Source: Bolinopsis microptera (lineage: Eukaryota; Ctenophora; Tentaculata; Lobata; Bolinopsidae). From it: DNA of 64,000 bases. The position numbers and the translations under genes were made by a program. The DNA is taken from assembly GCF_026151205.1 (NCBI RefSeq), contig NC_087073.1, positions 6,717,001 to 6,781,000 of the forward strand. The letters are read 5' to 3'. Of the stretch, positions 34,175-56,726 are shown piece after piece. Numbering within the stretch: the first letter of the stretch is position 1; every line of letters begins with the position of its first letter. The notes beneath the pieces were generated by a model. It was given only the letters and a program-made list of their open reading frames with translations, had not been told where the DNA came from and did no database searches.

Positions 34175-35765
34175 TGACCCTTCCTGCTACGAGGATAAAC
34201 ACAACCAAAGTAACAAAAGTTAGTACAGATATGTGATTGTGCGTGTTGTGCTGATAAGGCTTTGATTGAGCGATGTTACAGTTTTTGAAAATAAACATAT
34301 TGCATGTGCACATAAAAACATTTGATAAACATTAGCACACTACAGTAATGTGTACCTTTTTTCGCTCTTGTGAGTGGGTGCATCATATTTCATTTTTGGA
34401 AGTCTCCTAAGTGAGAGTCTCCTACAATCAAATATTAGCATATCGCATTAGGCACTGGATGATATCAGAGTTGAAGTATTAAATCAGATTTCAGAGCGTA
34501 CAGATTACAGGGTGTTCAAAAATATTGCAAGGATGTACTTTTGAATAACTCTTTTTCCACTAGGATTGCCGACTAGATCAGCTATTACAAAAGTAAACTG
34601 CAGTTAAGACAAATGACTTGATTTTGTGAAAAGTTATTGGTAGTTCTAAGGTTTAATGGCTAATTTTGAGTTATATTTTTCTCGAAGAAATATGGGCAAT
34701 TTATTCCTTTGTCCTATAATATGGCACACCAAACCATAACGTTTTCCTTGGAATTTACTTTGGAAAAACCTGCATGCGCAGTGAGCTAGTAAATTGACGA
34801 TGATTGAAGTCAAAATTGTGAAACAGTACCAAGGATTAATTAGGTAAATCACCCAAATTTGCCTCGGTAGCTAGGGCACTGATTGTGGTTACTATGGGGC
34901 CATGGCAACGTGTTATCGAGTTACAAGACCTTGATTTTAGAATTAAATCCCACCAAACTTGCATAATATCGAAGATCCCCTGTACTTTAAAGTAATGCTT
35001 ACGACGTTTGTGAAATCATTCTTAATGGTGAATAATGGAATTATCAAATAAATGAAATGAAAAATGGTCTCAAAAAGTCGAAAAATGTGACTAAAATTGT
35101 TGTAGACTAAAAATTTGCAAAATTTGTGACTTAAATTATGGTAACCAAATTTATTGTGAACCAAATTTATTGGCCCTAAGGTAATACGAGCAGAAGGCTC
35201 AGTCTGCTCAATAATAAAAAATACTGACAATAAATCATTGCTTCAAAGTTGGTTGTAATTGTGGAAAGCTTGAAGGTACACAATTAAGAATAACTAATTT
35301 TTACTAACCAGGTTACACTGTTACAGGTAAGACTGTCAGTTTGTTGCAGAGGTACCTGGTACATTAATCAGCCACAGTCATAGTACATGAACTAAAGCAT
35401 CTGGCTCTGGTGTTCATCGCACTTGTCCACCGACCACTGTAGATTATAGCCCCGCTTCAAATCATCTCCTAAACAGTTTAAAGCTAAAGCAGTTTAAACG
35501 AAGAGTAGCGCAATATATTTTTATCAAGAAAAGACCACATTAAAATCAATAAAATCTTGGGCTGCAACTTCAAATTGCCACCTCAATCAAAATGAGCACT
35601 TGATTCCTACGTGGATAAGAACAATATCTTTTGAGGAGCTATAAAATAATGACATTATACATCTTACAATATCATACATTTAAAACACTGCGTGGGGAAG
35701 TTAAACATAACTTTCGAGATACAAATCGAAAAGTTCAAACATCCAGACAAGATATATTACTTACT
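34175..35765. other. Gene-free stretch with a lone transposon-like end
   Basis: At 34506 the sequence TA followed by cagggtgttcaaaaatatt resembles a mariner-type terminus with its TA target. I do not find the matching inverted end downstream. No gene is supported. Confidence 0.4.
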
Positions 35766-35849
35766 GGGGGGGTGTCATGTCCGTCTATGTCCGCCTATGT
35801 CCTGTCCTTTTTGGATTCTATGAGACAACGGACGTGTTTTTTGGGACAT

Positions 35850-35988
35850 TGGCGGACACGGACGGACATTGGCGGACTCGGACGGACATTGGCGGACTCG
35901 GACGGACATTTGCGGACCCGGACGGACATTGGCGGACTCGGACGGACATTGGTGGACATTAGCGGACATTGGTGGACATTAGCGGACA
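35850..35988. repeat. ggacattggcggac repeat array (left end of the 6.5-kb unit)
   Basis: Units of about 10 and 20 bp (ggacattggcggactcggac) repeat several times. They are the reverse-complement type of the tatgtccgcc decamers at 42140-42245, consistent with sub-terminal inverted arrays. Confidence 0.85.
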
Positions 35989-37472
35989 AGGCCCCAGGAG
36001 GAGGAGGAGGACTGGGGAGGAAGAGGACTGGGGAGGATCAGGGAGACCCAGGAGGAGGACCCAGGAGGAGGAGGAGGACTGAGGAGGACCCAGGAGGAGG
36101 AGGAGGACTGAGGAGGACTGAAGAGGAGGACTGACGATGACTGAGAAGGAGGAGGACTGAGGAGTACTGAGGAGGATGGCTGAGGAGGATGGCTGAGGAG
36201 GATGGCTGAGGAGGATGACTGAGAGGGAGGAGGAGGAGGACTCAGGAGGAAGAGGAGGACTCAGGAGGAGGACTTAGGAGAAATGAGAAGGAGGACTGAG
36301 GAGAACTGAGGAGGAGGAGGAGGAGGAGGACTAAATAGGAGGAGGAGAAGGAGGGGGACTGGGAGAGGACTGAGGAGGAGGAGGACTGATGAGAAGGATG
36401 AGGAGGAGGACTGAGGAGGAGGACTGAGGACCGAGGAGGAAGAGGAGGAGGATGAAGAGGAGGAGGATGACCCAGGAGGAGGAGGACTGAGGAGGAGGAC
36501 TGAGGAGCACTGAGGAGAATGGCTGAGGAGGATGACCGAGAGGGAAGAGGAGGAGGAGGAGGAGGAGGAGGACTCAGGAGGAGAAGGAGGAGGACTAAGG
36601 AGGACTGAGAAGGAGGAGGACTGAAGAGGAGGAGGAGGAGGAGGACTGAATAGGAGGAGGATGAGGGGGACTGGGGGAGGACTGAGGAGGAGGATGAAGG
36701 ACTGAGGAGAAGGATGAGGAGGAGGACTGAGGAGGACTAAGGACTGAGGAGGAAGAGGAGGAGGATGAAGAGGAGGAGGAGGACCCAGGACGAGGACTCA
36801 GGAGGAGGAGGACTGGGGAGGAGGAGGACTGTTGAGGACTGATGAGGAGGACTGAGGACGAGGAGGAGGAGTAGGAGGAGGACTGAGGAGGGGAGGAGGA
36901 AGAGGACTGAGGAAGATCAGGAAGACCCAGGAGGAGGAGGAGGAAGCATCTAAATGTTATTTCCATTTTTGTCCGTTTTCGTCCATTTTTGTCCGCTCTA
37001 TTTTTTGTCCGTTTTGAAAATATAGGGTACCGAACGGTGGAGGACTGAGGAGTCCTGAGGAGGATGGCTGAGGAGGATGGCTGAGGAGGATTGCTGAGGA
37101 GGATGACTGAGAGGGAGGAGGAGGAGGACTCAGGAGGAAGAGGAGGAGGAGGACTCAGGAGGAGGACTTAGGAGAAATGAGAAGGAGGGCTGAGGAGAAC
37201 TGAGGAGGAGGAGGAGGACTGAATAGGAGGAGGAGAAGGAGGGGGACTGGGAGAGGACTGAGGAGGAGGAGGACTGATGAGAAGGATGAGGAGGAGGACT
37301 GAGGAGGAGGACTGAGGACCGAGGAGGAAGAGGAGGAGGAGGACCCAGGAGGAGGAGGACTGAGGAGGACTGAGGAGGATGGCTGAGGAGGATGACCGAG
37401 AGGGAAGAGGAGGAGGAGGAGGAGAAGGACTCAGGAGAAGGAGGAGGACTAAGGAGGACCTACCTACCTTGG
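35989..37472. repeat. GGA-rich satellite, left part
   Basis: Purine-rich tandem units such as gaggaggactgaggagg. Higher order is visible: copy A (about 36150-37036) ends in a unique tail with gcatctaaatgttatttcc and several tttttgtccg motifs, after which the pattern restarts at 37037 (copy B), beginning ctgaggagtcctgaggagga. The serine/proline-rich open frames on the minus strand are shadows of the repeat. Confidence 0.9.
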
Positions 37473-37546
37473 GTACCTTGGGTTCGTTTCGGGCTAGCAC
37501 GCCCAGGCCAAGACATCTTGCGTCTCCACCACCGGTGTCTCCGTTA

Positions 37547-40500
37547 TCATGTCTTGCTCACAGCCCATTCCAAGATTGAATTGCCATTAGCCCCTGTATA
37601 TCCAGGGGTAGGAGGGGTGTCGGGGACGGTATGGAGAAAGCGATCAAGTGCTGCCTTGAATTTTGGCAAGGTTGGGATAGACTTGATGTCGTGGGGCACA
37701 ACGTTATACAAAGCAGAGGCCACTGAAGGGAAAGAAAGGAACCTCATGGTGTTGATGCTTTTGTATTTTGATCCACCAAGAGGACGAAGACATGTAACTC
37801 CTCTTCTTTGAGAGTGTTGGAAAGAAATGTTTACACTGTTGGGAATCTCACCGTAGTAAATTTTCCAGACAAGGATGATCATGTACCTCTCGCGGCGGCG
37901 CTGTAGGGAGTAGAGATCAAGCTGCTTCAGGCGCTCCCAGTAGCTAAGATGCTTGTATCCTGCTATTTTCGCAGTGAATGAGCGTTGGATCGACTCAATC
38001 ATGATTATGTCACACTGCAGGTGAGGCGACCAGAGAGCACAACAATACTCGGTAATAGAGCGGACGTATGTCTTGAAGAGCATCATCATCGTGTCTTTGT
38101 CTCTGGTAGAGAAAGTTCTCAGTACCCATCCAGCTTTGCTCGCTGCCTCAGAGGACTTTCTTGTGATGTGTTGACGCCAGGAGAGATCACTGTCAACATA
38201 CACACCGAGATCTTTCACGACATCATCAGAAGATATCGATGCACCAGATGGTAAAATGTAGGGTTTCTTTAGCTCAGGGTTCTTACCATGCTGGAGAAGT
38301 TGGAACTTACTTTCGTTTAGCTCCATGTTGTTTGCTACTGCCCATCGCACTACTGCACAGAGATCTTCCTGGAGACATTTGCAGTCGGACGGGGAGCTGA
38401 TGTTTTTGTGGAGCTTGGAGTCATCAGCAAACACTTTTACTTTGCAATGTTTTACAACTAGGAACAGGTCGTTGATATACAAAATAAATAGCAGTGGGCC
38501 TAACACAGTGCCCTGTGGTACCCCACTTAGTACCATTATGACGAGAGATTCAATACCATCGACAACGACATGTTGGGTTCTTCCACTGAGGAAGCTTTCC
38601 AGCCAGCGGTGGGCGTTGCCCTGGATACCGTACATATGGAGCTTCTTCAATAGTATAGCGTGATCTACCTTATCGAAGGCTTTGCTGAAATCAAGATACA
38701 GAATATCAGCATTTTCGTCACCATCTAAGTCATCCATGATGTCTTGGACGTGGTGAAGAAGTTGAGTAAGACAGCTTCTTCCAGCTTGAAAGCCGTGTTG
38801 ATCGTGGTTGATGATGTCTTGAGCTACAATGTAGTCAACCAGCTTAGCGCGGACGACCCTCTCGAACATCTTTATGAGGTTGGATGTTAGAGATACCGGT
38901 CGATAGTTGGCAGCAATCGACCTTTTCCCCTTTTTAAAAAGGGGGATAATACTCTGGTTCTTGAATTTTGTAGCTATTTCACCAGAGCTTAGCGAAGCTT
39001 TCCAAAGCTTGGTTATCACAGGAGCTAGGACAATTCCACATTCCTTGAGGATTAGGACTGGGAACTTGTCAGGTCCGACTGCTGAGAAACGATTCATCGC
39101 TTTGATGGCGTCGAGGATATCTTGCTCATTAAAGTCGATGTCTGTGATAGAATGAGGTTGCTCAATGACCTTGGACGTCCGGACTTCGGCTAGATTTGCC
39201 TTTTTGGGGTCGCTGAAAGCACTCGAATATTGATCCTGTAAGATATTACCCATAGTGGCTGGATCAGACTGGAGCTTGTCATCGCTATCCAATAGGGGTC
39301 CGACAGATGCAGCAGGGGTTTTAAACCTCTTTGCGAAGGTATAAAACGCCTTAGGATTAGTCTTGATCTTACTAAGAGCAATAAGTTCTTCTCTGGCTCG
39401 CTGCTGTTTAATGTCCGCTTTAAGGAGCATCTCGACAGCAGCCCTCTCTTCATCCAGCTTGCGAAGCTTGACATTATTGCGAGGCGGAGAAGGGCCACAA
39501 AAACTGTATTTAATACAGTTGATCCTGGCATTAAGGCGCTTTTTCTTTCTAAGGAGAGCCACCCTTGACCTTGGGATTTTTGAAGATGCTGCGGCTTGAC
39601 GATTGTGGCTATGAGAAGGTGCGTGTTTCTTGCAGATCTGCACAAGGATCCCTTCAAACATATCCCATGCAGCATCTTGGCTAGTTGAAGGGTTGGTTAC
39701 TGTCGACCAGTCTACAGTAGTGAGTTCCTTGTTGATCAAGGCCCAGTCAGCAGCATTGAAGTTGATGTCATCAAGTGCTGTGGCAGGACTGTACTGTTTC
39801 CTTGCTGGTTGCTCAAGTAGGAACTGCGGGTGGAGGAGAGTACAGGTCACTATGTCGTGGTCTGATTTCTCCGTCTTTGACACTGATAAACCGTGGATTA
39901 AGTCGGTGTTGTTGGATAGGATCAGGTCAAGGATGTTTTGGTCCTTCCTAGTGGGTTCATCGACTAGCTGCTCTATGAAGTTTGAAGATATGAACTCCAT
40001 AAAGGCTAGTCCCGAGTTCGTGTCGGAAGCCGATTTGCTGGAGTTTGGTTTGATCGACTTACTGGACCAGTCTACAAACGGCAAATTAAAGTCGCCTGCA
40101 ATGTAGAGTTCAGGAGAGCCAGGGAGGTGGTCTATAAAGTCTTGGATCACACACAGACAGTCATCAAATTTGTCGAATGGTGCCTGTGGAGGGCGGTACA
40201 CGCCAACAAGGAGAAAGTTACTGCTAGCGATGTGAACCATTGCAACTTCACAATAGGAGTTAGAGTACACTTTTGTCGTGTCAGCAGGTATAGAGTGGTG
40301 TAGGAAGATAGCTACACCGCCTTGAGCACGTTTGTCTCGATCAGCTCTGATGGTACTGTAGCCAGGGATACACGTCTCTGCTTCAACATGGTATGGCTTC
40401 AGATGAGTCTCAGTCAGAATAAAGAAGGGAGTGTGGAGCGGGCTGGTTGCTAAATTCTCGTGGAGAGATTTTAACTTCCATTGCTGGTTCTTTATCCCAG

Positions 40501-40786
40501 GATTCATTCCTTGTATGTTAAGAAGAAATGTTGAGGAGATCGGGAGTATTGATTTGAGGTCTACTTTCCCAGCAGCGGTTGGTAGAGAGCAGGCTGTTGC
40601 AGGTGCTGTGCAGGGTAGCCCTGGGGAAGATGAGGGGCTTGTTGGTAGGGTTGCTGAACTGCAGTTGAGTACTGAACACCCGGACGAAGATATAACTGGG
40701 GGTTCGGGCTTGTTTGCGGAGGTAGATGAGAGGCCATCATTGATTCGAGTGATTTCTGAATCATGCACGACATCTCTTTCGACCAA
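37547..40786 (-). CDS. CR1-like LINE ORF2: endonuclease-reverse transcriptase (intact)
   Basis: 1079 codons without a stop. The N-terminal third is an APE-type endonuclease with ILTETHLKP, RADRDKRAQGGVAIFL, VGVYRPPQ, YIAGDFNLPFVDW and KSDHDIVTC. The middle is a reverse transcriptase with IIPLFKKGKRSIAANYRPVS, HGFQAGRSCLTQLL, ILYLDFSKAFDKVDH, LSGVPQGTVLGPLLFILYIN and the catalytic VFADDSKL. The C-terminal region (SITEYCCALWSP, YWERLKQLDLYSLQRRRERY) is shared with the relics at 14.8 and 33.6 kb. All catalytic residues that I can see are present. The first 100 codons overlap the ORF1 frame and may not be translated; translation might begin near LLNIQGMNPG. Confidence 0.9.
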   Translation of the reverse strand: MVERDVVHDSEITRINDGLSSTSANKPEPPVISSSGCSVLNCSSATLPTSPSSSPGLPCTAPATACSLPTAAGKVDLKSILPISSTFLLNIQGMNPGIKNQQWKLKSLHENLATSPLHTPFFILTETHLKPYHVEAETCIPGYSTIRADRDKRAQGGVAIFLHHSIPADTTKVYSNSYCEVAMVHIASSNFLLVGVYRPPQAPFDKFDDCLCVIQDFIDHLPGSPELYIAGDFNLPFVDWSSKSIKPNSSKSASDTNSGLAFMEFISSNFIEQLVDEPTRKDQNILDLILSNNTDLIHGLSVSKTEKSDHDIVTCTLLHPQFLLEQPARKQYSPATALDDINFNAADWALINKELTTVDWSTVTNPSTSQDAAWDMFEGILVQICKKHAPSHSHNRQAAASSKIPRSRVALLRKKKRLNARINCIKYSFCGPSPPRNNVKLRKLDEERAAVEMLLKADIKQQRAREELIALSKIKTNPKAFYTFAKRFKTPAASVGPLLDSDDKLQSDPATMGNILQDQYSSAFSDPKKANLAEVRTSKVIEQPHSITDIDFNEQDILDAIKAMNRFSAVGPDKFPVLILKECGIVLAPVITKLWKASLSSGEIATKFKNQSIIPLFKKGKRSIAANYRPVSLTSNLIKMFERVVRAKLVDYIVAQDIINHDQHGFQAGRSCLTQLLHHVQDIMDDLDGDENADILYLDFSKAFDKVDHAILLKKLHMYGIQGNAHRWLESFLSGRTQHVVVDGIESLVIMVLSGVPQGTVLGPLLFILYINDLFLVVKHCKVKVFADDSKLHKNISSPSDCKCLQEDLCAVVRWAVANNMELNESKFQLLQHGKNPELKKPYILPSGASISSDDVVKDLGVYVDSDLSWRQHITRKSSEAASKAGWVLRTFSTRDKDTMMMLFKTYVRSITEYCCALWSPHLQCDIIMIESIQRSFTAKIAGYKHLSYWERLKQLDLYSLQRRRERYMIILVWKIYYGEIPNSVNISFQHSQRRGVTCLRPLGGSKYKSINTMRFLSFPSVASALYNVVPHDIKSIPTLPKFKAALDRFLHTVPDTPPTPGYTGANGNSILEWAVSKT

Positions 40787-40903
40787 TCCGCTTTCAACTG
40801 GTCCAAATGCTGGAGAAAATCCTTGTTGCTAAAATATTGCGAAGCATTTTTCTCTTGAGGCGGCTTCAAAGTTGATGTATTCTTCCTGCTGCGCTTGTGA
40901 TTG
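40561..40903 (-). pseudogene. CR1-like LINE ORF1, C-terminal remnant
   Basis: An open frame to the stop at 40561 reads MKPPQEKNASQYFSNKDFLQ, then a Q/P/Y-rich tail ending LYQPLLGK. It overlaps the ORF2 frame by about 225 nt. The element is truncated upstream at about 40903, so the ORF1 N-terminus is missing. The function of ORF1 (probably RNA binding) is inferred only from position. Confidence 0.6.
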
Positions 40904-41995
40904 ACTGAGAAGGAGGAGGACTGAGGAGGAGGAGGAGGAGGAGGACTGAATAGGAGGAGGATGAGGGGGACTGGGGGAGGACTAAGGAGGAGGATGAAGG
41001 GCTGAGGAGAAGGATGAGGAGGAGGACTGAGGAGGACTGAGGAGGACTGAGGAGGACTGAGGACTGAGGAGGAAGAGGAGGAGGATGAAGAGGAGGAGGA
41101 AGACCCAGGAGGAGGACCCAGGAGGAGGAGTCAGGAGGAGGAGGACTGGGGAGGAGAAGGAGGACTGTTGAGGACTGATGAGGAGGACTGAGGACGAGGA
41201 GGACTGAGGAGTACTGAGGAGGATGGCTGAGGAGGATGGCTGAGGAGGATGACTGAGAGGGAGGAGGAGGAGGACTCAGGAGGAGGACTCAGGAGTAAGA
41301 GGAGGAGGAGGACTCAGGAGGAGGACTTAGGAGAAATGAGAAGGAGGACTGAGGAGAACTGAGGAGGAGGAGGAGGACTGAATAGGAGGAGGAGAAGGAG
41401 GGGGACTGGGAGAGGACTGAGGAGGAGGAGGACTGATGAGAAGGATGAGGAGGACTGAGGAGGAGGACTGAGGACCGAGGAGGAAGATGAAGAGGAGGTG
41501 GACCCAGGAGGAGGAGGACCCAGGAGGAGGACCCAGGAGGACTGAGGAGGATGGCTGAGGAGGATGACTGAGAGGGAAGATGAGGAGGAGGAGGAGGAGG
41601 ACTCAGGAGGAGGAGGAGGAGGACTGAGGAGGACTGAGAAGGAGGAGGACTGAGGAGGAGGAGGAGGAGGACTGAATAGGAGGAGGAGGGGGACTGGGGG
41701 AGGACTGAGGAGGAGGATGGAGGACTGAGGAGAAGGATGAGGACGAGGACTGAGGAGGACTGAGGAGGACTGAGGAGGAAGAGGAGGAGGATGAAGAGGA
41801 GGAGGAGGACCCAGGAGGAGGACTCAGGAGGAGGAGGAGGACTGGGGAGGAGGAGGACTGTTGAGGACTGATGAGGAGGACTGAGGACGAGGAGGAGGAG
41901 TAGTAGGAGGACTGAGGAGGGGAGGAGGAAGAGGACTGAGGAAGATCAGGAAGAACCAGGAGGAGGAGGAGGAAGAGTAGGAGGAGGAAGCATCT
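40904..41995. repeat. GGA-rich satellite, right part
   Basis: Continuation of copy B (40904 to about 41190) and a full copy C (about 41190-42066) that repeats the same internal order as copy A and ends with the same gcatctaaatgttatttcc tail. Confidence 0.9.
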
Positions 41996-42127
41996 AAATG
42001 TTATTTCCATTGTTGTCCGTTTTTGTCCGCTCTATTTTTTGTCCGTTTTGAAAATATAGAGTACCGAACGGACAAAAAACATGATCCCCCTATAACAGCA
42101 AAAATTGAACATTTTATTTAGCAATTT

Positions 42128-42245
42128 AGGTGTCCATTAATGTCCGCTAATGTCCGCTAATGTCCGTTTATGTCCGCCTATGTCCGCCTATGTCCGCCTA
42201 TGTCCGCCTATGTCCGCCTATGTCCGCCTATGTCCGTCTATGTCC
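42128..42245. repeat. Decamer array tatgtccgcc
   Basis: About ten near-perfect copies of a 10-bp unit (tatgtccgcc, with taatgtccgc variants at the left), sub-terminal in the 6.5-kb unit. Confidence 0.92.
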
Positions 42246-42669
42246 TGTCCTTTTTGGATTCTATGAGACAAGCGGACATAGACGGACGTGACACCCCCCC
42301 CCCCCCCCCTTACTATTAAGTATCTGTGCTCCCAAAAATCTTAACACCCCTCTAACACCAGACTAGTAGCAAGCTGTTACGGTAATAGCCCAGCCCTCTA
42401 ACACCCCTCTAATAGCCATAACACCACCAGTAGTTATCACGTATAATCCACGATTCTGCCTTCACTGATTATCAGCCAGTGTCCACAATTATTTAATAAA
42501 GGATAACACTACACAGTGTAACTGTATATATATGATATTGATATTATATTTATGATAAATACAATGTATAAATACATTGTTTAAATTTAAACATAAAATC
42601 TAGGGTTTAGCTGACACCTACATTTCCCTGGTATCATAAGCCACAATTATTTTTTTACATCACACCAGT

Positions 42670-42900
42670 TATCCCCAATCGATGAAGATCATTTTCCAGA
42701 TGTCTTGAAAAACTACAGACCAGTGTCAAACCTTGGGAAAACTAATTAAAAGAGAAGGCTACAGGAGCAATGAGCATGTAATGATAACCTCAATTGTCCT
42801 GGACAATATGCTTACAAAAGAGATCATATTTCACTTGTTATTAAGATAGTGTTAATCATATCTTCATAGCAGCTGATGAAAATATGAACATATTTCTGTT
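42670..42900 (+). pseudogene. LINE reverse transcriptase fragment
   Basis: Frame-broken translation reads DEDHFPDVLKNYRPVSNLGK and, further on, LNCPGQYAYKRDHISLVIKI. NYRPVSNL and the Q-x-A/G-x-R-x-x-H-S block are RT fingers motifs of L1/CR1-clade LINEs. The element is short, with stops. Confidence 0.65.
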
Positions 42901-42976
42901 CTTCAGATTAAGTCAAAACCTTCGTCAACCAACCGAGAAATTGTTTCTTGAGGACAAAAAACTGGATGTTTAAATA

Positions 42977-43699
42977 GGTACCGCGACAACCCCCCCCCCC
43001 CCCCGACAATTGACCCCCTGACAATTGACTTCCCGACAATTAACCCCCTATGTAGTTACAATGGGGTCAATTGTCTCGAAATCTAGGGTTTAGTACGACA
43101 ATTGACCCCCCGCCCCCGACAATTGACCCCCCAACAATTGACCGCCCGACAATTCACCCCCCGACAAGTGACCCCCTGACAATTGACCCCCATGTAATTA
43201 CACTGGGATCAATTGATCGGGTCATGGTCAGGGTCAGGGTCAGGATCAGGGTCAGGGTCAGGGTCAGGGTCAGGGTCAGGATCAGGATCAGGATCAGGGT
43301 CAGGGTCAGGGTCAGGGTCAGGGTCAGGGTCAGGGTCAGGGTCAGGGTCAGGGTCAGGGTCAGGGTCAGGGTCAGGGTCAGGGTCAGGGTCAGGGTCAGG
43401 GTCAGGGTCAGGGTCAGGGTCAGGGTCAGGGTCAGGGTCAGGGTCAGGGTCAGGGTCAGGGTCAGGGTCAGGGTCAGGGTCAGGGTCAGGGTCAGGGTCA
43501 GGGTCAGGGTCAGGGTCAGGGTCAGGGTCAGGGTCAGGGTCTGGGTCAGGGTCAGGGTCAGGGTTAGGGTTAATTGTATTAAATTATATTGTCGGGGGGC
43601 CAATTGTCGGGGGTCAATTGTCGGGGGATAATTGTTGGTGGGGGGGGGGTGGTCAATTGTCGTGGGGGACAATTGTCGGGGGTTAATTGTTGCCCACCC
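42977..43699. mobile_element. Foldback element with telomere-like (TCAGGG)n core
   Basis: Bordered by the identical 9-mer GTTTAAATA at 42968-42976 and 43700-43708. The arms are arrays of a roughly 15-bp unit: cgacaattgaccccc on the left (43003-43200) and its reverse complement gggggtcaattgtcg on the right (43590-43690). The outermost bases (ggtaccgcgacaac at left, and reverse complement gggtgggcaacaat at right) are alike. The core is the hexamer array at 43220-43572. A 9-bp duplication suits MULE or foldback families. No protein is encoded. Confidence 0.82.
43220..43572. repeat. (TCAGGG)n array, about 57 units, ending in TTAGGG
   Basis: Nearly perfect hexamers, with TCAGGA variants toward the left edge, one TCTGGG near the right, and two TTAGGG units at the right border (43562-43572). 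TTAGGG is the common metazoan telomere repeat, so the array looks like a mutated and amplified telomere-like seed. The VR, GS and LT dipeptide frames here are artefacts of the hexamer. Confidence 0.95.
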
Positions 43700-43907
43700 G
43701 TTTAAATACTATCTGCAGCTAATGTAGTACATGATTCTAAAACTAATATAAATAATTCTAAAACTCAAATTAAAGTCTTTCGGTCTAATATAGTACTGCT
43801 CAATGGGATGGTGTGGAAATCGCTCATAAAACATTAGTAATGTTTGCGCCTACTATTAAAAGCCAGGGAGTGTTTTAGACGAGATTTGTAGTGAAATCAA
43901 CAAGAAA

Positions 43908-44648
43908 ATGTACGAGGAAATTCAATCTTGCAATTTAATAAACAAGAGATCAGTAACGAAAGAGAAACCATGCGAATGGTTGGAAACTGTCTGTTGTATA
44001 TTGGACCAGTTCAGTATCACCTGGCTATGGAAGGCGATACCTCTTGCAGAAGAAATTGACAAGTTGAAAAGTGAGAAGATTTCAGATCAGAGTATTATCA
44101 TCGATCTTCAGAATAAGGCTATTGAAAAAAGCAACAAACAGCTCAAATCAATGCAGAATACCGTGCAAACGGAGATGAAAAGCTACTTTTCAGTCGTTAG
44201 AAAAAGCATCAATGCTGCTTGCGCCCCAAAGAAGATCCACGCTGCAATTAAAAAAGTAGAAAACCAGATTGAGTGAAGCAAGAACGCAATCATTTATGGT
44301 CTATCAGAATCAGAAAACGAGCAACTGCTGAGTAAAGTTGAGGAGGTTCTGAATGAAATTAGTGAGAAGCCTTTAGTCAGGGACTGCTGCTGTATTGGAG
44401 CTCCGAAAGAAAATGTATCCAGACCAGTAAAGTTCACATTGAGCAGTTCTGACCATGCAACACCAGTGATCAGAAACACCAGTACACTACGCTCAAAGGA
44501 GGGGAACAGCTCAGTTTACATCTGCCCTGATAGGACTGCCACGGAACGAAAAGCTTATAAAAAGCTTGTAGAAGAACTGAGACTAAAACGAACTACAGAG
44601 CCTGACAAGTTTCATAGTATTAGGAACAATAAGATAGTCAGCTTGTAG
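43908..44648 (+). pseudogene. LINE ORF1-like protein with one internal stop (half-LINE)
   Basis: 247 codons in one frame broken by a TGA at 44274. The N-terminal part includes a predicted coiled coil (IDKLKSEKISDQSIIIDLQN and onward). The C-terminal part reads NAIIYGLSESENEQLLSKVE, then RPVKFTLSSSDHA, NSSVYICPDRTATERKAYKK and a final IRNNKIVSL. This layout is known from invertebrate LINE ORF1-type proteins (RRM-like nucleic-acid binding). No endonuclease or RT follows: about 165 bp after the stop the element ends in a (TGTATCCT)4 tail. Confidence 0.75.
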
Positions 44649-44812
44649 AGAGTATAACTAGAGGCGAGACTGGCTAAAATTATTATTCCTACTTATCTAA
44701 ATTAAAACATTATTGTTGATTTTGATCTTGAAGGGACCATCATTTTTGAGGCCATTACTTGCCGATGATGTCAATGTTTATTTCAGGATTACCACTTTTG
44801 GAACTCAATAAA

Positions 44813-44844
44813 TGTATCCTTGTATCCTTGTATCCTTGTATCCT
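44813..44844. repeat. (TGTATCCT)4 tail of the half-LINE
   Basis: Four perfect octamers directly after an aataaa-type stretch. A 3' microsatellite tail of this kind is usual for CR1/L2-like non-LTR elements. Confidence 0.9.
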
Positions 44845-44879
44845 ATCAGGTCCAGTTATAACAAAATGCCGTAGCCAAA

Positions 44880-45185
44880 GCTGTTGATAGGCAATATAAA
44901 CATTACTATCTTGAGGATGAACTGATTAATCTTTACTGGTTGGATAATGGATATAGAGAAGAGGATTGAATTCAAAATCTTACTGCAAAATCTCACAAAT
45001 CCATACTAGGATTGGCTCCAACTTATCTGCAAGATATGTTCGGATTTATGTTTGGTGTGGGTAGCCTCTCTGTAGTAGCTTCTAAGATGTACAATCAATT
45101 TGCTAATTCTTTGAAATCGTTAAAGCTCTTCTAAAAACTTTGTCGAAAAACTATTCAAGTCATATTTGGTGAAAGACCTTTAATT
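44880..45185 (+). pseudogene. LINE ORF2 C-terminal fragment
   Basis: Broken frames give DELINLYWLDNGYRE and SILGLAPTYLQDMF, matching the common LINE end pattern of a W-L-P-x-x-x-R block followed by a G-L-A-P-x-Y-L-x-D block. Several stops and indels are present. Confidence 0.55.
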
Positions 45186-48386: not shown

Positions 48387-51300
48387 CTAATCGTTGTGGT
48401 CTGTCAGCCTCTTGTCTCTTAGAAGAACTGTACACACCATCGCATTACCTGACCAACAATATACAGTGTTCACTAATACATTTTAGGTAAAAATAATAAA
48501 GCAACTTGAAATTGTTATCCAATTTAAATTTAAGATTTTCATTTCAAACAATAAGTTGCATCTGTGGAATGTTCTGCTACAAATTACAGTAAGGTTACAG
48601 TTAGGTTAAGTATGATATAACTTACCGTAGATAGCAGCCATGATAACAACACCCAATGATATTCCAAATATTATCAGACTCAACTCAACCTGAAGCGAAT
48701 TTGAAGTGAGTCCTTAGACACAGTTCAACTATTTAAAATATTTGGTGGAAATTGTCGGGATGGATAGTGTCGGTATGGAAAGTGGGTTGCTGAGACAAGG
48801 ATGAATATTAGTGAGTTGTTAGACTTTACCTCATTAGGCGGAGGAAACGTGACCTTCATTTACCACTAGCAAAGGACAAATCAAGCAACTTAGTACAAGA
48901 ATGTACACTAAACTCGCATCGGTATAATTTCAGTAAAATAAAACCATATTCTAATATAAAGCGAAAATTCTAACCTCAAACATGAAAGTCTAGGCTTATA
49001 ACTCCCAACTATTTACTCACTAATTCATCTAATTCCACGTCAACATGAACAGTCGCTACAAAAACTTCTAAACATAAAACTTTCTTCGCCTATTTTACAA
49101 TCCTTATCAGCACTAAATACTAAACATGGACCTGTTATATTCAGTATTGTTGGGCATTAATAGCAATCTCAACATGTAATAATATATCTACAATTTTATT
49201 CAAATATGTCCAGTATAATATGCGTTCGTGTCTAACTGTGTCTAAGTGGTTTGCTGGTAACTTTATTTTAAAGAAACAGTTAAACTTGCTAAGGTTGTAT
49301 ACTTAGCTATGTATGATGTAAAGCGTTGGAAATAATTCATACTGTCGGGGTGAAAACTGTCGGTATGGAATGTGGGTTGAATATTTGTGAGTTGTTAGAC
49401 TTAACCTCATTAGGCGGAGGAAACGTGACCTTCATTTACCACTAGCTCACTTGCAAAGTACAAATCGAACAACTTAGTACAACGTTACTCGTAATGGTAT
49501 AATTTAGCGATAAATTCAGTTAAATAAAACCGTATCTTGATATTAAGCGACAATTCTAACCTCGCACACCAAAGTCTAAGCTTATAACTCCCAACTATTT
49601 ACCTACTAATCTTACTATATAAAAAGTGAAACGATATTATATCTATGACTATATATATATATTTCATGGCTGGACTTCTACACAATAAAAGAAAGCGGTT
49701 GTGATTAGATCTTCGAAAGTCTTTGCATCGTTTATTTACATCAATTCTGAGAAATTATATCATTAAAGTAACTACAACAAATACGAATCATATACAATTG
49801 AGAATAAATACAAACTAAAAGCAGTGGGAAAATCTGATGAACTGAAATTTAAAAAAGAAACTGAAAGCCGTTAAAAATGTACTCTTATCTTATCTCTTAT
49901 CTAAATACTGATAACTGATTCTCGGAAAATCACTTAAAATCACAACAAAAAACCTGTAAAATTTATACTTAAGTAAAAAATGTAATATGCACGTCTCTGG
50001 AATAATGGTATAACTAAATAAAATCTACAAAATATACTAAAACTAAAACTAAAAAGTATATGGTTACTATCAAGGGTGTTCATACCCCCAAACCGTTCAA
50101 GGGTTTTCAATTGGGTCTGGTAGAACCCCTCTCTAGCTTCCATAGCCTTTTCTTTGTCTGCTTTACTAATATTAGGCTCAAATACTAAAGCGTCTACTAT
50201 AATGACAGAAAGGTGCTTACTAAGTGAGGAATTATAGGAGGCTATGGTACTAAAATCTAAATCATGATCAATATCTAAAAAATGGTTAACTAATTTACAA
50301 CTTCTTATACCTTTCTTTATGTGACTCTTATGGTTAGAGAATCTCTTAGGGAGATTTGTATATATATATATATCTATTATATAAATTTTCGTTGCCATTT
50401 TACTGACACCAAGACATCAACCTCAATTAACATGTCTTCTGTGAAATACGTGAGAAATTGAAACTTTTTTGGCTAGGCCTTTCGATCAGTATGAATAAGT
50501 AGAACTACAAAATTGGCCACGGAATAAAAACTTAAGGTCCCAAAATTTGGACCAACAAGAGATACTAAGATCCAAATAAATGTACCCATTCAACTGATTA
50601 CATCCTAGGAATAGAGCTTTTCCAAATCATATTGTGACAAATTGAATAAGTATGTCTTTAAACCAATTTTAAACATATCCACTGTATAACACATTTTAAC
50701 TGATGGTGGTAGAGTGTTGTAAGTTTTTCAATAACACTGAAAAATCTTTGCTCATCATGTGATGATGAGGAACAAGAAGTTTGAGAGAGAACCATTTCCT
50801 GTAGATAATACAAATAACAAAACTGATAAAAATAAAACTTTCTTCGCCTACTTTACGATCCTTATCAACACTAATTAATACTTTATTCGGTATTGCTGGG
50901 TAAGAGAGAGATGAATCGTTTTTAAGTATTAATATCAATCCTCTGATCTAATACATATAATAATATATCTACAATTTTAATGAAATATGTTCAGTATAAT
51001 ATACTTTTATAGTGGTTTGAGAACCACTAGTCTGATACCAGCAAAATTATATTAATGTCAAGTCATGCCTGCTTACAATCTGCTTAGTGCAGATTATGTT
51101 CGTAAATGTGATGGCTTTGCAGACTGTTAAATGTTAATACTATCAGTGCTAAACTATCACTACAAGCTGTGGTCGTGATGGTAACCTGGTCGTGATAATT
51201 GAGAGGGCGGTTGTTGTGGTTATTAACCTGGTCGTGATAATTGAAAGGGCGGTTGTTGTGGTTACTAACCTGGTCGTGATAATTGAGAGGGCGGTTGCTG

Positions 51301-51813
51301 TGGTTAAATGAACCTGGTCGTGATAATTTAGAGGTCGGTTGTTGTGGTTAAATGAATCTGGTCGTGATAATTTAGAGGTCGGTTGTTGTGGTTACTAACC
51401 TGATCGTGATAATTTAGAGGTCGGTTGTTATGGTTACATACCTGGTCGTGAGTATTAGCGGTGCGGTTGTTGTGGTTACTAACCTGGTCGTGAGTATTAG
51501 CGTTGCGATTGTTGTGGTTACTAACCTGGTCGTGAGTATTAGCGGTGCGGTTTTTGTGATTACTAACCTGGTCGTGAGTATTAGCGGTGCGGTTGTCATG
51601 GTTACTAACCTGGTCGTGAGTATTAGCGGTGCGGTTGTTGTGGTTACTAACCTGGTCGTGAGTATTAGCGGTGCGGTTGTTGTGGTTACTAACCTGGTCG
51701 TGAGTATTAGCGGTGCGGTTGTTGTGGTTACTAACCTGGTCGTGAGTATTAGCGGTGCGGTTGTGAGCGTTGACGAGATTAGCTAAAGCAGTTAGGATAA
51801 ACATCAGCACCAT
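48387..51813 (-). CDS. Putative membrane protein with signal peptide and GPCR TM1-like segment
   Basis: Three exons whose phases fit: 51813-51736, 48689-48626 and 48448-48387. Exon 1 gives a signal peptide MVLMFILTALANLVNA and a short ectodomain with the N-glycosylation sequon NRT. Exon 2 (CAG|GTTGAG to TACG|GTAAGT) encodes VELSLIIFGISLGVVIMAAI. Exon 3 opens with GNAMVCTVLLRDKRLTDHND and then a stop (48387). The join yields a helix ending Y-G-N-x-M-V-C-x-V-L-L-R-x-K-R-L-T, which is the class A GPCR TM1 pattern with N1.50. TM2-7 are not seen after it, so this is either a truncated GPCR or pseudogene, or a 67-aa single-pass protein. Exon 1 ends within a 42-bp minisatellite whose copies repeat the donor site. 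Without splicing, the frame from 51813 runs 161 codons through the repeats. Confidence 0.42.
48745..49020. repeat. Segmental direct repeat, copy 1
   Basis: About 270 bp repeated at 49345-49610 with the same order, including cctcattaggcggaggaaac, gtgaccttcatttaccacta and ataactcccaactatttac. A further related segment pairs 49080-49210 with 50835-51000. Non-coding as far as I can see. Confidence 0.8.
49345..49610. repeat. Segmental direct repeat, copy 2
   Basis: Second copy of 48745-49020, about 600 bp away in the same orientation, diverged by point changes and small indels. Confidence 0.8.
49940..50398 (-). pseudogene. Penelope-like element GIY-YIG domain relic
   Basis: An open frame reads LPKRFSNHKSHIKKG, CKLVNHFLDIDHDLDF, SVIIVDAL, KEKAMEAREGFYQTQLKTLE and RFGGMNTLDSN. 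The run R-x-x-N-H-K...HF....H...E-x-F-x-x-x-L-x-T-L-x-x-F-G-x-N is the C-terminal GIY-YIG-type endonuclease end of Penelope-like retroelements. The reverse transcriptase is absent and the N-terminal Y-x-G part is degraded. Confidence 0.6.
50600..50860 (-). pseudogene. LINE ORF2 C-terminal fragment
   Basis: Frames on the minus strand give RKWFSLKLLVPHHHMMSKDF and then, after a frameshift, MFKIGLKTYLFNLSQYDLEK. This is the usual end of an RT-bearing LINE ORF2 (a P-x-x-x-x-x-x-x-x-F block, then F-K-x-x-L-K-x-Y-L-x). Short and broken. Confidence 0.5.
51183..51771. repeat. 42-bp minisatellite, about 14 copies
   Basis: Unit on the + strand aacctggtcgtgagtattag plus cggtgcggttgttgtggttact. Copies from 51440 to 51771 are nearly identical. 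Those on the left have tgataatt(g/t)agagg in place of tgagtattagcgg, and two have a 2-bp insertion. Read on the minus strand, 42 nt equals 14 codons (NRTANTHDQVSNHN), and most copies contain CAG|GTTAGT or CAG|GTATGT. Confidence 0.95.
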
Positions 51814-52649: not shown

Positions 52650-53300
52650 CTAACCAGGAAACGCAGAGAAAGAAGGGTTGATAGGGACTTCAGCTGCCAA
52701 CTTCTCACTGTTGAAATAATCCTGAAGTTGAGGAAGTTCCTGGAATATCTGAAGAAATCTCGCCAGGTTTTCAGCTTTATCAACACGTTCCGCTGTGAGT
52801 TTCCTGATCTGGCTCACGAACTCATACAGCATGAAGTCAACGTAGGTCAGTTTCTCCCCCAATACGAAGGGTCCGTCTCCGATATACTTGTCTAAAATCT
52901 CCAACTTCTTTTCTAAGTTCTCAAAGTAAGCGGGTTTCTTTTCTTCAAACTGGTCTTTCTTAAGTATTTCTTGGAAAGCAGCGCGGAGATCAACAGCCTC
53001 TTGTTCTATCATCTCATTCTTCACAATATCTTTCTCGTCATCTCCTGGCACCAGTCCAAATTTCCTACCAAGATATCTACAGATAGCCACACTTTGTGTA
53101 ATCTTGATATCTCCGTCTATAAGATAGGGTAAGTTGGGCAAGTCCAACCCCAACTCCAACTTCTCAGAATACCAACTTTTGTATCCTTCCTCTGTCATCT
53201 CTATCCGTCTGTCTGTCCAATCCACTCCCGAGTACCGCAACAAATACCTACATGCTTCACCTTTCGCTCTGATATCCCAGTATCCCAATGTTATCGTCAT
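52650..53300 (-). CDS. Mu-class glutathione S-transferase, copy 1
   Basis: Intronless 216-aa frame, the usual length for cytosolic GSTs. Conjugates glutathione to electrophiles in the cytosol. The N-terminal thioredoxin-like domain has MTITLGYWDIRAKGEACRYL with the catalytic tyrosine Y7, then LDLPNLPYLIDGDIKITQS, holding the cis-proline (NLP) and the glutathione-binding Q-S pair. The C-terminal helical domain has GDGPFVLGEKLTYVDFMLYE with the N-capping box T-x-x-D. The similarity in LGYWDIR and LPNLPYLIDG points to the mu class rather than sigma or alpha. First of three tandem copies on the minus strand, the most divergent of them, ending SAFPG rather than TGLE. Confidence 0.94.
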   Translation of the reverse strand: MTITLGYWDIRAKGEACRYLLRYSGVDWTDRRIEMTEEGYKSWYSEKLELGLDLPNLPYLIDGDIKITQSVAICRYLGRKFGLVPGDDEKDIVKNEMIEQEAVDLRAAFQEILKKDQFEEKKPAYFENLEKKLEILDKYIGDGPFVLGEKLTYVDFMLYEFVSQIRKLTAERVDKAENLARFLQIFQELPQLQDYFNSEKLAAEVPINPSFSAFPG

Positions 53301-53535
53301 GTTGCTCCTTCCTGAACGTAGGGGTGAGGAAATGGTGTATGTTCGTTATTTTGAACATGTGGTCTAATTGGAAAATTGTGGATATAATAAACTGGCCCAA
53401 ACCCAGTCGCTATTTCGATTATCGGCACTGTAAATAAATCTTAATATTGGAATGAAAGTTATGTGCTTGTTTACCGCCTATATTAAAACAACTATATCAT
53501 CTAAAAACTAAATTGTTCTGACTATGATAATGATA

Positions 53536-54342
53536 CAGGGTGGCCCATAAAAGACTACCCATCCTTATCTCTTAAAATTGTAACAGGTCGTTGAGATCTT
53601 GATAATTATTTAAAAAACAAAAAGTGGCATAACTTATGTTCTGATAAATATTTTTGCTTCTAAATTTCACAGAATGTTAATAAAAAGTAGCTAAACCTTT
53701 GTGGCAAGTTTTGTGTGAGTGCGAGCTTCACTGCGCTTATTTGACCAATTTAGCCCCTGAGCAAGCTAGCTTGAATTTCTCACCCAGAACTGTTTACATT
53801 GGTTAATAGGAACCACCAAAAAATCCTGGGTAAAAAAAAATCAAAAAACCAGCGATTTATTCACGTTTTACCAATTCTATTCACCATGATCCATCGGACA
53901 TTCCATTCTCTCTATATTTTAACTGATAAGGACTATCACAGATGATCCTTCCTGCTTGTTTATATCGTTCTTCTCACATGGAATGTGCGATGCATCATGG
54001 TGAATAGAATTGGTGAAACATAAATAAATCGGTGGTTTTTTAATTTTTTTACCCAGGATTTTTTTTGTGGTTCCTATTAACCAATGTAAACAGTTCTGGG
54101 TGAGAAATTAAAGCTAGCACGATCAGGAGCTAACTTTGTCAGACAAGCTCAGACTCACACAAAACTTGGCACGAAGTTGTGTCTAATTATGAATGACATT
54201 CTCTAAAAATTTGAAGCAAAAATATTAATCAGAACGTAAGTTATGGCGCTTTTCCATTCTGAAATAAAATAATTAGCAAGATCTCAGCGACCTGTTACAA
54301 TTGTAAGAGATAAGGATGGGTAGTCTTTTATGGGCCACCCTG
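53536..54342. mobile_element. Tc1/mariner-type MITE with near full-length inverted repeat
   Basis: The left end cagggtggcccataaaagac (53536) is mirrored at the right end, gtcttttatgggccaccctg (to 54342). Both ends are flanked by TA (53534-53535 and 54343-54344). The two halves pair along almost their full length around a centre near 53940, so the unit is an 807-bp palindrome-like element. TIR sequence, TA target and lack of coding sequence fit a non-autonomous mariner derivative. It lies between GST copies 1 and 2. Confidence 0.92.
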
Positions 54343-54773
54343 TATATTACATCAAATTACGATAAATGAGGTTTACAACAATTACGCTACATAATAATAA
54401 ATCGCGAATAAAATGCAAACCAAGAGCGTTACAAACATTTTATATAATTAAAAGTCTGACCATTACAAATTAAGAAATCACGAACCCAAAGCAAAGATAC
54501 TGTGTTAAAACTGTATAAAGATGTAAGCTAATTATCTGCTCTAAAAATACATTTACAAGACCATGATAATAAAACTTATCCTAATAATAAAATATCGTAT
54601 CATGCATAAGTAATGACTGTAGATAACAAGTTTAAAAAAGTTTGATAACATGTGAAGGGTCAGTAGTAACTTAACAACGATGGCAAAAACCATGTCCTAA
54701 AAACAATCAATACAATGATAATATACCCCTAAAATCTAATAAAATTCTAAGAACATTAGATATAAACATTTTC

Positions 54774-55429
54774 CTATTCTAAGCCTGTAAAATTAGCGAA
54801 GGGAGGATGGATTGGTCCGGTTTTGTAGAGCTCACTGTTGAAGTGATCCTGAAGTTGAGGAAGCTCCTCAACAGCCTTCAGAAGTCTTCCAAGGTTCAAA
54901 AATGAATCAACACGCTCTGGGGCCATCTTTCTTATCTGGCTCACGTATTCATACACCATGAAGTCTACGTAGGTCAGTTTCTCCCCCAGTACAAAAGGTC
55001 CGTCTCCGATATACTTGTCTAACATCTCTAATTTCTTCTCCATGCCATCAAGATAAGCCGGTTTCTTCCCCTCGTAATCCTCCTTCTCAAAACATATCTT
55101 TGTAAAAGCAGTACGGAGATCATGAGCTTCCTGTTCTATCATCTCACACTTCACAATATCTTTCTCGTCATCTCCTGGAACCAGTCCAAATTTCCTACCA
55201 AGATATCGACAGATAGCCACAGTCTGTGTAACCTTGATATCTCCGTCTATCAGATAAGGTAAGTTAGGCAAGTCCAACCCCGACTCGAACTTCTCATCGG
55301 CCCACCGCTTGAAACCCTCATCAACCATGGCTATCTGTCATCCTCCCAGTCCAGCCCGGAGTACCGGAGGAGATAACGTGAGGTGTCCCCCATGGCACGT
55401 ACATCCCAGTAGCACAGCTTCAGAGACAT
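54774..55429 (-). pseudogene. Mu-class GST, copy 2, with a one-base frameshift
   Basis: The start ATG at 55429 opens MSLKLCYWDVRAMGD and continues to WEDDR, then meets TAG at about 55332. The rest (184 codons from 55328, LDLPNLPYLIDGDIKVTQT through GPIHPPFANFTGLE) is intact but in another frame. One base is missing near 55331-55338 compared with copies 1 and 3. All other family features are kept, so the break is recent or an assembly error. If real, only an N-terminally shortened protein lacking the catalytic tyrosine could be made. Confidence 0.88.
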
Positions 55430-56075
55430 GTTACCTAGTGAGAGTGGAATGTGGTTAGATAATTAATTGAATCAATTGAATTAATTAATTAGATAATTAC
55501 ATCAGACAATGAACTGGAGACACAACGAGAAGTGCATCGTTTTTAAGTGATGAGTAAGCAACACATTTTATTTGCAAATTTGAGTATAATTTGATGCGAA
55601 TTTCCGATTAACGAGGTTGACACTTGACATTTGTATCGCTACACAATAATAAATCGCAACTAAATGTAAGGTAGTAATACAATAATATATAATATCAATC
55701 TACATGTAATCTAAATCTAGTCATAAACAACTATGAATGTTTATAATCTAAATAATATAGTCATAACAATTAATATGAACACAGCCAAACAATAAAACTT
55801 AAAAACAATACACAGATAAAAGCTACTAAAATAAAAGACACATAGTCATAAGTAACGATACAAATTATCCTTAATACAACACTATAAAACTTATTAATCT
55901 ACAAATCTAACTTATCATGCACAAACTTCATAACTGTGGATAAAAGTTAATAAACTTAAAGAAATGTTAAATATCATTATTAAGTATTAACTTGACAACG
56001 AAGATAATAGTTTAGATCGTATAGTAGATTAAACAGCATGCTATGAAAACTTGAGGGCACAGTCAAAGTTCCATT

Positions 56076-56726
56076 CTATTCCAAGCCTGTAAAAGCAGCG
56101 AAGGGAGGATGGATTGGCTTTGTTTTGTACAGCTCACTGTTGAAGTGATCCTGAAGTTGAGGAAGAGCCTCGATAGCATTCAGAAGTCTTCCAATATTCA
56201 CAGCTGTACCAACACGCTCTGGCGACATTTTTCTTATCTGACTCACGAACTCATACAACATGAAGTCAACGTAAGTCAGTTTCTCCCCCAGTACAAAAGG
56301 TCCGTCTCCGATATACTTGTCTAAAATCTCCAACTTCTTCTCCATGCTATCAAGATAAGCCGGTTTCTTCTCTTCGAAACCCTCCTTATCAAGACACAGC
56401 TTCTGAAAAGCACTACGGAGATCAACAGCTTCCTGTTCTATCATCTCACACTTCACAATATCTTTCTCGTCATCTCCTGGCACCAGTCCAAATTTCCTGC
56501 CCAGATATCTGATAACGGCCACACTCTGTGTAACCTTGATATCTCCGTCTATAAGATAGGGTAAGTTAGGCAGATCTAGTCCTAGAGTGAACTTCTCCGC
56601 TTGCCACCTTCCAAAATCTGCCATTCCCATCCTGTCATCTACCCAGTCCTGTCCAGAATACCGGAGAAGATGTCTGGGGATCTCACCCATAGCACGTACA
56701 TCCCAGTAGCACAGCTTCAGAGACAT
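56076..56726 (-). CDS. Mu-class glutathione S-transferase, copy 3
   Basis: Intact 216-aa intronless frame. MSLKLCYWDVRAMGEIPRHL carries Y7; LDLPNLPYLIDGDIKVTQS, LVPGDDEKDIVKCEMIEQEA and GDGPFVLGEKLTYVDFMLYE follow; it ends HPPFAAFTGLE. It is closer to copy 2 than to copy 1. The tandem spacing (about 650 bp from copy 2 and 1.5-2.1 kb from copies 2 to 1) indicates local duplication. Role and active-site chemistry as for copy 1; substrates cannot be told from sequence. Confidence 0.94.
   Translation of the reverse strand: MSLKLCYWDVRAMGEIPRHLLRYSGQDWVDDRMGMADFGRWQAEKFTLGLDLPNLPYLIDGDIKVTQSVAVIRYLGRKFGLVPGDDEKDIVKCEMIEQEAVDLRSAFQKLCLDKEGFEEKKPAYLDSMEKKLEILDKYIGDGPFVLGEKLTYVDFMLYEFVSQIRKMSPERVGTAVNIGRLLNAIEALPQLQDHFNSELYKTKPIHPPFAAFTGLE

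Follow-up and report, generated by a model that had tools for sequence, protein, structure and literature searches.

The 64,000-nucleotide stretch of the Bolinopsis microptera genome analysed here (hereafter the window; C2:6717001-6781000) contains a 723-bp element, at 42977-43699, that we identify with high confidence as a non-autonomous MULE; very probably, it belongs to the Mutator (MULE) superfamily, has foldback arms and resembles the Phantom group in design. A Mutator-type element without its transposase gene, and with a telomere-like array instead, has spread many such arrays across the chromosomes. Target duplications, empty sites and nested copies show that this occurred both by transposition and along with a host repeat. 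The usual explanations for telomeric arrays in chromosome interiors are fusion of chromosomes and telomerase action at breaks. The DNA transposon described below, as carrier and spreader of arrays, provides a specific path for telomere-like sequence into internal positions, and its parent-type element, empty sites and duplications make the order of events testable in related species. In a genome of this kind, mapping with telomeric probes could mistake these arrays for fusion scars.

Anatomy of the Element in the Window

The element is enclosed by two exact copies of GTTTAAATA (42968-42976 and 43700-43708, forward strand), a sequence found as a single copy at an empty site, which bears out the perfect 9-bp target duplication described in a first-pass annotation made from the sequence alone. 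On the forward strand, the left arm (42977-43218) starts with GGTACCGCGACAA and is built from GACAATTGACCCCC units of ~15 bp; farther inside, it contains palindromic modules that follow the scheme GACAATTGACCCC-ATGTARTTACA-GGGGTCAATTG. The right arm (43573-43699, same strand) starts with ATTGTATTAAATTATATTGTC, one base off the parent-type sequence, carries tandem units that are the reverse complement of those of the left arm, and ends with TTGCCCACCC; the inverted arrays of a repeat unit noticed earlier are therefore real. Between the arms lies the hexamer core (43219-43572, forward strand), a (GGGTCA)n array bordered by GGGTCATGGTCA on the left and by GGGTTAGGGTTAATTG, with its GGGTTA, on the right, which occupies the position of the transposase gene in the parent-type element. 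The earlier figure of about 57 TCAGGG hexamers is a fair one, given 58.7 copies according to TRF (variants counted) and 51 exact hexamers, and the true TTAGGG seen at one border corresponds to the single exact TTAGGG of the element, at its right border.

Neither component can be ascribed to chance, since the arm unit matches the window 12 times (shuffle mean: 0.11) and the hexamer array 56 times (0.00 in shuffles). Across the genome searched (264.65 Mb in 232 contigs), (TCAGGG)4 has 6,282+9,114 overlapping matches vs. 46+0 in a reversed control. The long arms of tandem units are able to pair, as expected of a foldback-type element: as single-stranded DNA, a coreless copy folds at -88.3 kcal/mol (z = -15.5 vs. 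shuffles), and z is -4.8 for the window stretch 42978-43700, which is one base off the element. An Rfam search of the window returned no match reaching gathering scores.

Empty Sites

To recognize sites devoid of the element, a pattern made of flank, one target copy and flank was searched genome-wide with at most three mismatches. Three genomic loci fit this pattern, against zero in the reversed control, the target being GTTTAAACA in two of them and GTTTAAATA in one. Strict blastn of these loci against the window missed the flank homology, which sensitive blastn recovered. At one site (L043), the left flank aligns at 81% over 110 bp and the right flank at 86% over 168 bp, and the two window flanks overlap by exactly the nine target bases; at a second site (L041) the overlap is seven bases, and at the third (L042), 54 bp of the right flank align at 85%, with just 24 bp of the left flank. 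As paralogues that lack the element and have a single target copy, these loci demonstrate that the window element is an insertion. A true telomere or a fusion remnant was also considered and rejected, as the window array is enclosed by element arms and target duplications, and empty sites exist.

The Family across the Genome

An exact terminal pattern, GGKWSSGCGACAATTGACC, matches the genome 201+197 times (398 in total) vs. 0+0 in the control. The tips of the family are asymmetric (GGTACC/GGGTGG), and inside these 6-bp tips terminal inverted repeats are present, GCGACAATTGACC being common to both ends. Among the first 100 terminal matches listed (from C1 to C3:9.5 Mb), 32 facing pairs lie within 3 kb, of which 31 were read at both ends, the pair at C2:19516206 (pieces L091 and L069) being left out. 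An exact duplication flanks 26 of these copies (8 bp in 23, 9 bp in three), so that the 9-bp duplication is true of the window copy while the rest of the family mostly has 8 bp; the five copies lacking one are L077 and L079 to L082, the latter four with nearly identical flanks. As the 31 copies represent only 24 target sequences (21 with exact duplications), they do not amount to 31 separate insertions. Their length ranges from 238 to 2,489 bp, and one of the family copies (L088) holds 319 GGGTCA in one unbroken run.

A core, counted as at least 10 TCAGGG plus TTAGGG hexamers, is present in 27 of the 31 copies and in reverse orientation in none. Together with the 26 exact 8-9-bp duplications, this substantiates the proposal of a mobile foldback-type element spreading interstitial telomere-like arrays, and refutes the opposite possibility, raised in advance by the first-pass annotation, that arms and hexamer arrays occur independently and without target duplication. 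The core is not universal, which settles negatively the question of whether all copies hold it: it is absent from L076, L077, L087 and the transposase-bearing copy, and replaced in L073 by a (GGGGTT)n core with two TTAGGG.

One family copy (L072, C1:5113680-5115210) harbours another foldback-like element, which stands for one more arm family of comparable design: its ends are GGGGGTGATGCA, both of its arms contain GTCAATTAAT repeats, and its 8-bp duplication, GTAATAAC, was determined by eye.

Parent-Type Element and Superfamily Placement

When 88 MULE matches were set against the arm matches by eye, one was found to adjoin an arm, on C3. The corresponding element (L116, C3:14095306-14097909) is 2,604 bp long, has family arms on both sides, of the same type as the left arm of the window element, and is flanked by a 9-bp duplication, ATAAAAACT. 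It ends with GGTATCGCG and CGCCCACCC and contains neither TTAGGG nor TCAGGG. The element has a frame of 499 aa from stop to stop, in which residue 23 is the first ATG and which matches FLYWCH (PF04500, E = 9.5e-9, residues 26-95) and MULE (PF10551, E = 1.7e-14, residues 221-313). No other complete transposase frame turned up among the 86 candidates scored out of 429, which did include a further copy with part of its sequence deleted (C5:1030516-1031462, 91-93% identity) and short fragments of 68-81% identity at C2:20071943, C6:15642863 and C5:5556437. The locus L115 was rejected as a second parent in spite of its MULE match and 11 arm units nearby: it is a core-bearing copy with target GAGCTTAG, and the MULE fragment lies outside its arms, ~350-700 bp away.

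Just inside the right arm of the parent-type element stands ATTGTATTAAATTACATTGTC, and the short copies have ATTGTATTAAATTATATTGTC directly beside the core, with one base changed. Because the former recurs beside the core as the latter, the short copies can be read as internal-deletion forms in which the hexamer array replaces the gene, even though no intermediate between the parent-type element and a core-bearing copy was seen among the copies read. The parent-type element is a likely parent of the short copies, but its left tip is GGTATC, one base apart from the GGTACC of the family, and judging from this difference it may instead be a sister of their donor.

The placement follows from four properties. 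Duplications of 8-10 bp, by which the Mutator superfamily is recognized in the available text of PMC5225508, are seen in 26 of the 31 copies, in the parent-type element (9 bp) and at the empty sites; both ends share the terminal inverted repeats described above; a MULE transposase lies within termini of the family; and the frame of the parent-type element combines the N-terminal FLYWCH finger and the MULE domain that define Phantom in the portion of PMC3169594 consulted. The predicted transposase, acting in trans, would bind the arms and mobilise the short copies. A Merlin-superfamily element had been considered first as the transposase source, on account of the 8-bp duplications and GG ends, and Merlin elements of this genome do likewise feature 8-bp duplications and tandem-repeat arms. 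There are 58 IS1595-type matches in the genome. In the Merlin elements L100 (C1:19725224) and L102 (C5:5798660), an IS1595-type frame is combined with GG ends, inverted GGTCCATGGACC-repeat arms and 8-bp duplications (GGAATCAG and CAATGTAG, respectively; ends and duplications by eye). This source was dropped because the 14 Merlin loci examined out of the 58 matches (2.0-3.4 kb each, some ends possibly lying outside) all lack the arm unit, GACAATTGACC, and since, in addition, it is a MULE transposase that sits inside the arms of the window-element family, we regard a Merlin affiliation as highly improbable.

Multiplication with a Host Repeat

A search with the left arm gave 83 matches (40 of 504 candidates scored), from which 20 loci were cut out. 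A host flank is common to 17 of these (L001 being the window copy), hence to 18 loci once L057 is added. Both junctions of the shared insertion are readable in 15 of the 18; the right junction is lost in L002, and the fetched stretch ends inside the core in L018 and L019. When aligned to the window by blastn, six nested copies show 91-99% identity across parts of 34935-35765 and 42309-44966, i.e., the left-hand and right-hand parts (the latter on the forward strand, 44966 being the longest reach) of a host repeat. The window insertion thus lies within a host repeat, along with which it was multiplied. With the window copy being one of 18 loci that have insertion and host flank in common, its own jump into the window is not necessarily needed: it arrived with the host repeat, or the reverse.

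Among nested copies read to both ends, the largest hexamer cluster extends from 96 bp (L010) to 618 bp (L012). One core (L017) has 57 hexamers, and the cluster of L018 measures at least 1,276 bp, with a right border ~2.3 kb past the left arm. The element minus its core, in the 14 both-ended copies among L001-L020, spans 360-459 bp in 13 cases and 260 bp in L016. Consequently, the core is far more variable (96 to at least 1,276 bp) than the arms (260-459 bp for the element minus core), though the differences in core length may partly be due to assembly error in such arrays. A single insertion multiplied with its host, with cores of 96 bp to beyond 1,276 bp, offers a natural series for gauging the instability of telomere-like DNA.

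A second insertion of the family, with target GAGCTTAG, is likewise present in several copies (L053, L084, L093, L097 and L115), and it was apparently multiplied by another host repeat.

Carriers of Interstitial Arrays

The first 100 of 15,396 TCAGGG matches listed form, once clustered by hand, nine clusters (C1, 2.1-8.0 Mb), and all nine lie between arms of the window-element family (L046-L053 and L020), with shared flanks in L047 and L048. The first 100 of 3,688 TTAGGG matches listed, treated in the same way, form 15 clusters (C1, 0.7-24.3 Mb), which belong to the window-element family (seven), to a family B (four, including L044, where only a diverged right arm is seen), to a family C (three) and to a plain simple repeat (one). 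Finally, five longer arrays on C2-C3, chosen for length, are distributed among the window-element family (three), family C (one) and an armless locus (one). The latter (L071, C3:21176743-21177385) is a 642-bp array with 105 TTAGGG and no element arms, next to CCACGGCTCAGTT repeats and ~107 kb from a contig end.

The arms of family B are made of GACTCTAGGGCGTAA units, and the arm pattern (one mismatch) has 32+38 matches vs. 0 in the control. Twelve exact matches on C1-C2, other than those fetched earlier, were sampled, and a TTAGGG core is present in eight of these copies. The coreless ones are L121, L125 and L126, with a common unique interior, and L129, with another interior; their right ends were not reached. 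With the element start taken as GGGG, an exact 8- or 9-bp duplication is found in six of the seven copies read at both ends, L132 having none. As regards the family B copies found earlier via TTAGGG, L062 and L064 have no duplication, and in L054 CACACACA falls within a CA repeat and is little informative as a duplication. In family C (L055, L058, L060 and L067), TTAGGG arrays of 42 to 270 bp stand between inverted GACAACTGAACCCAATT arms, with identical flanks in all four loci. A TTAGGG interior therefore occurs in two families with different arms, namely the window-element family and family B.

Origin of the Core

The bases bordering the core were collected by a script run on 44 loci, by which 33 left and 18 right borders were read. 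The left borders comprise 22 GGGTTA, four GAGTTA, five GGGTCC (including L047 and L048), one AGGGTC and one GGGTCA, the latter being that of the window copy; the right borders comprise 13 GGGTTA, three GGGTCA, one GGATTA and one GGTTTA. Genome-wide, a hand count with a pattern that sees only GGGTTA and GGGTCA gives 75 of 89 right borders with GGGTTA and 14 with GGGTCA, these 89 borders not being independent, as they go back to few founders and several are copies of the window's own insertion. Since border hexamers are mostly GGGTTA, whereas the arm unit mostly contains GGGTCA, a TTAGGG founder followed by TCAGGG growth appears preferable to slippage from the arm.

Local growth by slippage on arm sequence, with no part played by telomere or telomerase, is one alternative. 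The arm unit has GGGTCAATTGTC and the arm module ATCTAGGGTTTAG, on which slippage could yield (GGGTCA)n or (GGGTTA)n; GGGTCA adjoins ATTGT, as in the arm unit, at the 14 right borders mentioned above; the arm module CAATTGTCGCGAAATCTAGGGTTTAG can be compared with the core junction CAATTGATCGGGTTAGGG; and cores contain further G-rich units (GGGTCCT, GGGGTT, GGGTTC). The idea was weakened by the border hexamers, in that 75 of 89 right borders are GGGTTA, unlike the usual GGGTCA of the arm, and 26 of 33 left borders are GGGTTA (22) or GAGTTA (4). It is further at odds with L072, which has GGGTTA-type units and zero TCAGGG, and with the TTAGGG core of family B, whose arm sequence is different, so that slippage alone, while a serious contender, is the less probable account. 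A core captured ready-made from a chromosome end, as envisaged by the first-pass annotation, would agree with the TTAGGG borders and with the long pure TTAGGG arrays of this genome. The border hexamers do speak for the TTAGGG founder implied by that proposal, but no direct trace of the capture itself was met with: no telomere array that would reveal the telomere repeat of the species is present in the 20 contig ends read (500 bases each), and no possibly subtelomeric non-repeat sequence was noticed on viewing 12 copies in full. Moreover, the TTAGGG founder could have arisen inside the element. We consider such a capture unlikely. As for a chance neighbourhood of microsatellite and inverted repeat, simple repeats are indeed common in the window, but the array stands between the arms, in the same orientation, in 27 of the 31 two-ended copies, and the nine ordered TCAGGG clusters on C1 all fall within family arms, which makes coincidence next to inconceivable.

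The origin that we favour for the core is break repair with telomeric filler. Under this scenario, a break inside a parent element would have been repaired with loss of the gene and with TTAGGG-type filler at the junction, supplied either by telomerase or through copying of telomeric DNA, yielding the founder short copy. The array would then have mutated into GGGTCA, GGGTCCT and GGGGTT forms, growing and shrinking through slippage or unequal exchange, and every transposition would plant a new interstitial telomere-like array. More speculatively, TTAGGG arrays might have replaced, at repair junctions, the interior of two or more TIR families with different arms (the window-element family and family B among them), with telomerase or telomeric DNA repeatedly healing transposon breaks and transposition then being the main source of interstitial arrays; we find this broader generalization rather doubtful. 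If it were true, telomere repair may draw on the arrays as portable donor sequence, or telomere-binding proteins may attach to them.

Comparison with Known Systems

The closest design is that of Tm1, a Mutator/Foldback family of root-knot nematodes. According to the parts of PMC3169594 consulted, the arms of Tm1 are composites of tandem units 13-15 bp long, its end motifs are short and asymmetric, its duplications measure 9 bp, and a single 496-aa FLYWCH+MULE (Phantom-type) copy is accompanied by short non-autonomous derivatives. Its arm unit is different, however, and its non-autonomous forms carry a histone-hairpin motif or are MITE-like; the string "telomer" has no occurrence in the main text of that paper. 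Muta1, a mosquito MULE, makes both 8- and 9-bp duplications, as seen in our family, and subterminal tandem repeats of 9-15 bp are reported for 10 of 12 long-TIR mosquito MULE families; in contrast, the accessible part of that article (PMC5225508) describes no hexamer core, and Muta1 has been shown to be active in yeast. Tetris, a foldback element of Drosophila virilis, also has 8-9-bp duplications, spreads tandem repeats and seeds satellite DNA, but its arm units are ~220 bp long, no autonomous copy was found, and telomere-like repeats go unmentioned in the available text (PMC4079207).

With respect to the arrays themselves, vertebrate interstitial telomeric sequences likewise place TTAGGG arrays in chromosome interiors, and their origin is ascribed to telomerase acting where double strands had broken. 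For those that come with fragments of telomerase RNA, the portion of PMC8537989 at hand suggests no transposon role in their spread, unlike the arrays of the window-element family, which spread by transposition. In the Pacific oyster, Helitrons with a tandem-repeat centre scatter arrays genome-wide as well (PMC8268682, in part), yet these are rolling-circle elements with long monomers, whereas our family is a TIR element with hexamers. The sections consulted of a review (PMC6410037) count mobile-element transposition among the ways in which large interstitial blocks might originate and state that interstitial arrays often have mobile elements at their flanks, and an excerpt of PMC12221973 reports that placozoan Mutator ends contain a motif enriched at chromatin loop anchors. 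No TIR transposon family with a telomere-repeat core was found in a literature search over titles and abstract openings, the coverage of which left subscription papers and preprints mostly outside.

Other Features of the Window

The host repeat is interrupted in the window by ~6.5 kb (35766-42308) in which AGG-rich minisatellite arrays stand on both sides of a LINE endonuclease-reverse transcriptase frame (37547-40828, minus strand; RVT_1, E = 1e-29). Farther along, three glutathione S-transferase-type frames follow each other on the minus strand (52650-56813), the first of which, the only one scanned, matches the GST_N and GST_C families. Finally, a 42-bp tandem repeat (51182-51764) is present in 13.8 copies, with several frames open.
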